Shown one piece after another: positions 237 to 1,502 of a DNA stretch of 64,000 nucleotides; within the stretch, counting starts at the first letter, position 1, and each line of letters starts with the position of its first letter. Position numbers and translations under genes: made by a program. The stretch lies in contig NZ_JWID01000001.1 in the NCBI RefSeq assembly GCF_001466305.1, positions 1-64,000 of the forward strand. Direction: 5' to 3'. This stretch comes from Defluviitalea phaphyphila (GTDB taxonomy: Bacteria > Bacillota > Clostridia > Lachnospirales > Defluviitaleaceae). Under the pieces are notes generated by a model that was not told the origin of the DNA, ran no database searches, and saw only the letters and a list, made by a program, of their open reading frames with translations.

Positions 237-1277
237 CTATATTATAATTTCTTCATTAAAGCATTCTTCAGGTGTTTTATAACCTAATATTCTTCGTGGA
301 AAGTTATTTATCCATTGTTGTATACGCTTTATTGTTTCTTCAGAAAAATCTTTAATGCTCTTTCCTTTAGGAATAAAACGCCTAATAAGTCCATTATGAC
401 GTTCGTTTGTTCCACGTTCCCATGAAGAGTAAGGATGAGTATGATAAACTTCTATTCCTAATTTTTCTAAGGCTTTAGATAGGTTACAAAATTCTGAACC
501 ATTATCTGCTGTTATAGTACGGAATATCTTAGAAACTTGCTTACCGTATAAATTATTTAATTCTAAAAGTTTTTTGTTAACAGCATTACTATCTTTTGAA
601 TCTAAGACAAACAGTAGTTCATAGCGAGTTTTTCTCTCGGTTAAAGTTAAAATAACTGAATCTTTAGTTTTTTTCCCTACTATTGTGTCAATTTCCCAAT
701 GACCGAAAGTTTTACGTAATTGTACTTCTTTAGGCCTTTGTTCAATGCTTTTTCCCATAATACGTCTATTTTTACGAATCCTTTTTCTTTTAGGTTTTAT
801 TCTGAGTTTAAGATTTAGATCTATGTTTTTTACTTTTAATAAACCTTTATCTATATAATTGTACAATGTTTTTGTGCATACAATATCCGTGTCTTTCCAT
901 TCATGCTTTCTCTTACATAAACCAACAACTGCATCTGGGGACCATTTTTCATTTAGTATCTTATCTTCTGCAAATTTTATAAATTTCTGAACCTGAGCCA
1001 ATTTATATTTTGCTCCGCAATTTCTACGATTTTTTTCATAAACTGCTTGTCCTGTTTCAGGGAAATATTGTTTATATGATGATAAATCGCTACGCAACTG
1101 AGTTGTTGTCCCCCTTCTAATTTCACGACTGATTGTACTAGGAGAACGACCTAATTTTTTAGCAATATAACGTTGGCTTTTTCCCTCTTTTAATAAGGCA
1201 GCAATTTGTCCTCTTTCATAAGCACTTAGGTGTTTAAATTTTCTTTTAGTTGTGGTATTATTAATTTTGGCAACCAT
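237..1277 (-). CDS. IS30-family transposase
   Basis: Full-length 346-residue DDE transposase. The N-terminus (about 15-55) is the IS30-type helix-turn-helix, with the stretch [16 protein letters not shown] followed by [16 protein letters not shown]. The catalytic core follows: D197 in [10 protein letters not shown]258 in TADNGSEF and E292 in [12 protein letters not shown], giving the DD(33)E spacing of the family. The start is ATG 1277, preceded by AGGAGG at 1287-1292. The frame is intact and all catalytic residues are present, so the element may still be active. Translation may be limited by an upstream RNA arm complementary to the start region (see findings). Confidence 0.95.
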
Positions 1278-1502
1278 AGTTGAGAACCTCCTGTATGTTT
1301 AGATTTTGGCACCTAAATCATACATGATTTCTCACTATGGTTGTCAATTATTTTTTTTATATTTTTTTATCTGTTGCATTTAATTTTACAACGAACCATT
1401 AATAAATTTTTTATTAGTTTTTCTTAGAATTATTTAAGTTATGTATTCATAAATTTTTATTAAATAATTTTTGAAATAAATTTTATGAAAAAGGGAGATA
1501 CT

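Follow-up and report, generated by a model that had tools for sequence, protein, structure and literature searches.

The window analysed here is the whole 64,000-nt stretch from Defluviitalea phaphyphila (contig NZ_JWID01000001.1, positions 1 to 64,000 of the forward strand). It begins with an IS30-family element whose parts are listed in Table 1. The transposase matched the HTH_38 and rve profiles (6.6e-19 and 5.2e-10, respectively), that is, the HTH and DDE domains found in the IS30 family. The terminal inverted repeats match over 20 nt at 90%, and reach 26 nt when their edges are read from the copies in relatives. The contig start (window position 1) is the edge of the IS or lies a few bases from it. 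In the same genome, copies of the element are split at contig ends: we found 11 further left ends (99-100% identical over 84-91 nt), 11 right-end pieces and two diverged right ends. The left ends all stop at about 1310-1315, at contig ends, and are uninformative for covariation because none of them reaches the second of the two arms described below.

Table 1 Features of the IS30-family element in the window.
Feature	Position	Strand	Remarks
IS30-family transposase, 346 aa	237..1277	-	HTH_38 and rve domains
Upstream arm TTGACAACCATAGTGAGA	1330..1347	-	originally predicted core 1343-1330, CAACCATAGTGAGA; from fold and covariation
Downstream arm TCTCAACTATGGTTGCCAA	1267..1285	-	holds ATG 1277-1275; originally predicted stretch 1285-1271, TCTCAACTATGGTTG
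Shine-Dalgarno AGGAGG	1287..1292	-	inside the span of the predicted hairpin
Predicted -10 box TATGAT	1317..1322	-	19 nt from TTGACA; from sequence
Inner stem, 5' half TGTATG	1319..1324	-	pairs with 1297-1292; from fold, second helix in alignment
Inner stem, 3' half CATACA	1292..1297	-	from fold, second helix in alignment
A-tract, 8 A, adjoining the upstream arm on its outer side	1351..1358	-	plus-strand T-tract after the hairpin
Left terminal inverted repeat GGTTCGTTGTAAAATTAAATGCAACA	1372..1397	-	holds TGTAAAAT with -10-like TAAAAT 1388-1383
Right terminal inverted repeat	1..26	+	outward -35-like TTGCAA 7-12

Other structures were noted in the window. A near-palindrome, AAATCATGTATGATTT, lies over the -10 box (1330-1315) and has a similar counterpart close to the opposite end of the IS (39-56); it is possibly a site for the transposase or a repressor. 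The 3' untranslated portion of the IS holds a large hairpin (81-212, minus strand) after the transposase stop codon; the 234-nt region folds at −72.1 kcal/mol. Its core, GGTAGTCAAGGGTAA...AACCCTTGACTACC, is retained with small changes in three relatives, and among the four sequences five pairs were changed on both sides and 13 were broken in some row. Rfam gave no match for this hairpin. Elsewhere, Rfam gathering scores were exceeded by a T-box leader (55106-55367, minus strand) and a purine riboswitch (25422-25523, minus strand).

The two arms of the start-codon foldback are complementary apart from a single bulged A and a single A.C mismatch. The original prediction had described a 14-bp pairing with a single bulge; this pairing is present, and its extent was drawn too short, as the real arms span 1347-1330 and 1285-1267. 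All of its coordinates were exact (14-nt arm 1343-1330, partner 1285-1271, AGGAGG 1292-1287 and ATG 1277-1275). The inner stem makes the predicted hairpin nearly continuous, and because it extends the hairpin, the Shine-Dalgarno sequence falls within its span. No Rfam family matched at the foldback site.

It had been proposed that RNA entering from outside folds over the start codon and that RNA beginning between the arms does not, and the predicted folds agree. The long RNA (1360-1240) folded at −36.2 kcal/mol (z −8.0; 0 of 200 shuffled sequences were equally stable), against −3.5 kcal/mol (z +1.2) for the short RNA (1309-1240) from the predicted internal start. The predicted cost of opening positions −12 to +2 was 21.6 kcal/mol for RNA starting at −80 or −72, 11.7 kcal/mol for a start at −60, and 4.2 kcal/mol for starts at −50 and −33. 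The switch thus lies between RNA starts −66 and −50, inside the upstream arm. The outer 6 nt of this arm are a −35-like TTGACA (1347-1342), which together with TATGAT (1322-1317) at 19 nt forms a predicted promoter. From these boxes we infer a transcript start near 1310, in the hairpin loop. The promoter pattern scan omitted this pair because its spacer was limited to 16-18 nt.

Relatives were gathered by transposase similarity alone from a genome collection, genome contigs, plasmids and phages. The nearest were 80% identical (G397 and G243), and the next were 77, 75, 67 and 64% identical. A protein scan of genome contigs yielded ten loci, with the best segment 52% identical, which were taken as distant members; a scan of IMG/VR gave no relative. 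Starts were set for 132 of 201 loci, and dereplication at 90% left 76 upstream regions. We used 73 of them, leaving out L194, L195 and L132, whose start codon had been set inside the gene or off its 5' end. IS30-family target duplications are short, at 2-3 bp. Read by eye, the G397 copies of the 80% relative (L062, L140-L164) are flanked by duplications of about 13-15 bp in the 12 copies listed with both ends, which we take to be long for an IS30-family element.

The arms were scored by Watson-Crick pairs only, so that the score is blind to the strand, and an element was called helix-positive when at most 5 of 100 shuffles equalled it. By this measure 61 of the 73 dereplicated elements were helix-positive and 12 failed. 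The more stringent limit of at most 1 in 100 was passed by 52 of 73, and the helix paired the start codon in all 52. The mean Watson-Crick score of matched arms was 11.56 versus 6.75 for re-paired arms, and 0 of 20,000 permutations over the 73 elements reached the observed value. An independent test with RNAduplex on 58 of 69 elements (two were too short and the remainder were near-duplicates) gave −20.95 kcal/mol for matched and −12.43 kcal/mol for re-paired arms, again with 0 of 20,000 permutations. Four of the helix-test failures (L071, L056, L130 and L027) seem by eye to be shorter or G.U-containing versions, and were kept as negatives.

Covariation was examined in a MAFFT alignment of 17 relatives, which was not fitted to the structure and whose rows were picked by hand from the 61 helix-positive elements. 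Changes on both sides of a pair numbered 31, compared with 14.8 in shuffled alignments, and the covariation score was 0.219 compared with 0.124 (0 of 500 shuffles for each). All measures fell when the partner was slid by one to three columns. In the 73-element set, all four Watson-Crick pairs occur at columns −8 to −3, −2, −1, +4 and +5. The letters of the arms differ greatly while pairing is kept, as in L070 (TGATTCATTATGA/TCATAATGAATCA), L083 (ACCCATGATGT/ACATCATGGGT), L085 (AAGTGTCCCATA/TATGGGACACTT) and L107 (AACCATAGATAAA/TTTATCTATGGTT). In L127 the start codon is TTG and the partner arm has changed to match. Loss of complementarity among relatives, which the original prediction had named as the finding that would speak against it, is the opposite of what we saw, since pairing was kept through compensatory change. 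Judged by this covariation, the predicted start-codon foldback is real and under selection.

The foldback occurs on all major branches of a tree of 66 transposases (those of the 73 rows with a length of at least 250 aa). Eight of the 12 helix-negative elements fall in one nested clade of nine (support 100/95), and the other four are scattered. Four members of this clade (L081, L114, L116 and L178) are preceded by a longer open frame. By eye, L081, L086, L114 and L116 carry a terminator-like hairpin in the sense direction just before the Shine-Dalgarno sequence, which may be another way of blocking entering transcription.

Ten more elements were read outside the 73-element set. Strong arms were found in ISApl1 (equalled by 0 of 200 shuffles) and ISLpl1 (1 of 200), and in elements of Enterococcus faecium (1 of 200), Lactiplantibacillus plantarum (0) and Lacticaseibacillus paracasei (0). 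A second, distant branch, to which ISApl1, ISLpl1 and others belong, also carries the foldback. ISCfr4 and a Rhizobium element passed the shuffle test at 1 of 200 each, on the arms alone. No arms beyond chance were seen in IS30 of E. coli (86 of 200 shuffles), ISAba125 (29 of 200) or IS1394 (34 of 200). For the prototype E. coli IS30, the opening cost was 3.7 kcal/mol in the long and 3.8 kcal/mol in the short RNA, and 467 of 1000 shuffles equalled its arm score.

The difference between long and short RNA was likewise predicted for the relatives. The mean cost of opening −12 to +2 in the 61 helix-positive elements was 14.2 kcal/mol in the long RNA and 4.6 kcal/mol in RNA from the predicted start. 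The gap was at least 5 kcal/mol in 51 of 61 helix-positive elements versus 4 of 12 helix-negative ones. The -10 box was sought solely at −60 to −25 in this test, so the placing of the start between the arms in 61 of 61 elements is partly built in; with the search confined to that interval, the box itself fell between the arms in 60 of 61. In L075 and L166, the ATG hidden by the stem opens a four-codon frame (MSYI) whose stop codon overlaps the downstream transposase ATG (ATGA), possibly a leader ORF with coupled translation; ten copies of the G397 element were among the matches listed.

The ends of the elements hold promoter-like boxes of their own. The left repeats contain TGTAAAAT or a TATAAT box, that is, a second -10 outside the upstream arm, which is probably half of a junction promoter. 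The right repeats mostly contain an outward TTGCAA or TTGAAA, and once TTGACA. A right repeat was found at 13 of 20 or better in 41 of the 51 elements with both flanks. In about half of these 41, the best hexamer was such a -35-like box at 17-18 nt, assuming a 2-bp linker; in the remainder, another hexamer scored equally or better. For the outward TTGCAA of the window, a -35-like half of a possible junction promoter, the spacing of 17 was measured in relatives, again assuming a 2-bp linker. According to the accessible text of three papers, the joined ends of IS30 form a promoter (PMC8450116, PMC9330008, PMC9333248), which is credited in one of them with high transposase output (PMC9333248). 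In the elements described here, RNA from the junction would carry both arms and so would hide its own start codon.

The reading that we consider fairly probable is that the conserved foldback silences transposase translation from RNA starting outside the element's own promoter. The predicted promoter lies between the two complementary arms, and its RNA would begin in the loop, carry the 3' arm alone, and leave the Shine-Dalgarno sequence and start codon exposed. RNA that reads in from a neighbouring gene, or that is driven by a host -35 box joined to the edge of the IS or by a junction of the IS ends, would contain both arms and form a hairpin some 80 nt long; we infer from the predicted folds that the start codon would then be hidden. 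The originally proposed role remains the likeliest, joined by an antisense role or, with lower probability, displaced by one. The original interpretation stands as regards the pairing arms, the promoter predicted to lie between them and the contrast between long and short RNA; the start is a predicted one, and termination of antisense RNA is a further possible role that it did not include.

That second role is indicated by the antisense strand. Of the 9 nt adjoining the upstream arm on its outer side, a mean of 6.67 were A in the 61 helix-positive elements, compared with 3.80 and 4.05 in two windows further out. At least seven of the nine were A in 41 of 61 elements (against 1 of 61 and 3 of 61 for the outer windows), so that on the antisense strand the stem is followed immediately by a T-tract, as in an intrinsic terminator. 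A terminator in the sense direction was rejected, as six or more T after the 3' arm occurred in 0 of 61. An excess of sense-strand G.U was sought as a sign of selection on the sense RNA, and the reverse was found: the non-Watson-Crick cells of the core comprised 6 of G.U type and 43 of A.C type against a composition null of 35% G.U, a count that takes the elements singly, uncorrected for relatedness. Counted per transposase cluster, there were 13 G.U and 32-33 A.C, near the composition null. Selection on the sense RNA alone would favour G.U over A.C, and the reverse count tells against a simple sense-RNA reading. Most of the cells that differ between strands read as A.C in the sense direction and as G.U in the antisense direction. 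The arm duplex was more stable on the antisense strand in 36 elements and on the sense strand in 10, and by cluster in 15 and 2 of 24, respectively, with 7 even. This preference went beyond composition (p 7e-6 over elements; mean −2.10 kcal/mol versus a null of −0.25 kcal/mol). For the whole hairpin the antisense advantage was mostly composition (−2.04 observed, −1.48 shuffled). Taken together, the A-tract and the antisense duplex preference suggest that termination of antisense transcripts is probably a further function of the hairpin, and the less certain of the two roles.

The two roles could be combined in a two-way insulator, which we put forward tentatively as one possibility. The sense RNA would hide the start and the antisense RNA would terminate at the IS edge; the sense fold would also catch RNA from the junction promoter, so that the circle promoter would not raise transposase in the way said for IS30. 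We regard it as unlikely that antisense termination is the conserved function and start-codon hiding a by-product. On this view the hairpin would stop antisense RNA running across the transposase start, whether initiated at an internal antisense promoter or in genes downstream. The tract composition and the strand preference described above are what this would predict, and antisense RNA is reported for the prototype IS30 in the accessible text of PMC8450116 and PMC9330008. However, a terminator has no need to sit on the start codon, and the helix covers it in every one of the 52 strongest elements. In elements with weak inner pairing the loop is large by the standards of a terminator, and a single group of plasmid-borne Bacilli elements (L119, L120, L121, L125 and L052) accounts for most of the largest antisense advantages. 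An UP element for the internal promoter would also place A-tracts at the same spot; as to UP element versus terminator, the standard deviation of the tract's distance was 4.7 nt when measured from the stem and 7.0 nt when measured from the -10 box.

It is rather improbable that the hairpin is constitutive, as in IS200, with transcription natively starting beyond the upstream arm (at the TGTAAAAT box of the left repeat, for instance) and translation always damped. When -10 boxes were sought openly, the best box, ties kept, lay at −60 to −35 in 44 of 61 elements, and in many elements extended -10-like boxes near −100 scored equal to or better than the internal one. The box near −100, however, belongs to the terminal repeat and resembles half of a junction promoter, and the internal -10 is steady at 44.6 ± 4.6 nt from the ATG, in a search limited to the interval between the arms. 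Still less credible is an inverted repeat acting at the DNA level, as an operator for transposase or a host protein or as a cruciform, with covariation arising through protein co-evolution or template-switch repair. For DNA, A.C and G.U are equivalent and sense G.U was not enriched, and the -10 box lies under the palindrome AAATCATGTATGATTT, which recurs in similar form close to the opposite end; yet the arms vary widely among relatives while one of them always lies on the start codon, and a strand preference is unexpected for a DNA site. Chance complementarity in an A+T-rich region, in favour of which we saw nothing, is already refuted by the two permutation tests and by the fold of the window.

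Silencing of entering RNA by the foldback, the reading preferred here, would bear on elements beyond this genome. IS30-family elements are common in Bacillota, and one of them, ISApl1, here annotated on an E. coli plasmid, is the mobiliser of mcr-1. A lock against neighbouring transcription would help to explain the tameness of high-copy elements; the relative in G397 occupies 18 full-length, near-identical places among the matches listed. It also raises the question of whether, once the ends are joined, the junction promoter yields transposase at all when the RNA made from it folds back on the start.

Several known systems resemble the foldback in part. In IS200, according to the accessible text of PMC3196728 and PMC12594629, a hairpin in the tnpA 5'UTR occludes the ribosome-binding site and a second stem-loop terminates impinging transcripts. 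The likeness is an RNA hairpin that occludes the initiation region, but in IS200 it lies within the tnpA transcript itself, whereas the short RNA of the present element is predicted to be free of it. Terminators 5' of transposase genes also insulate against impinging transcription (Naville and Gautheret 2010, PMC2965389; its accessible part names IS3-type elements, ISL3 and ISBma2 and not IS30), but they terminate in the sense direction, and a sense T-tract was absent here. E. coli IS30 shares the transposase family and the joined-end promoter with these elements, and differs in having no start-codon foldback. Our search of the open-access literature gave no account of such a foldback in IS30-family elements, although an older description is possible; this agrees with the original prediction, which had been cautious in knowing of none. 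The mechanism itself is known from IS10, and only its occurrence in the IS30 family appears to be unreported.

The original prediction likened the arrangement to both IS10 and IS200, and IS10 is the closer match. In IS10, arms flank the internal promoter, and read-through RNA hides the transposase start while native RNA does not. In IS50/Tn5, too, read-through RNA folds over the transposase start. Protection of IS10/Tn10 from external promoters was reportedly described by Davis, Simons and Kleckner in 1985. As in IS10 and IS50, the element in the window has two complementary arms, one on the initiation region and one upstream inside the IS. Here their complementarity is kept by selection, as seen in covariation. 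Conservation of pairing on the sense strand in particular, with G.U rather than A.C, was not seen in a test that is our own and no published criterion; this lowers membership in the IS10/IS50 type and not the likeness in working. The resemblance to IS50/Tn5, compared by its general description, lies in the read-through fold over the start, in another transposase family. With IS10/Tn10 the element shares arms on either side of an internal promoter, here a predicted one, and read-through RNA that would hide the start; it differs in its transposase family, in the A-tract adjoining the outer arm and in a helix better kept on the antisense strand.
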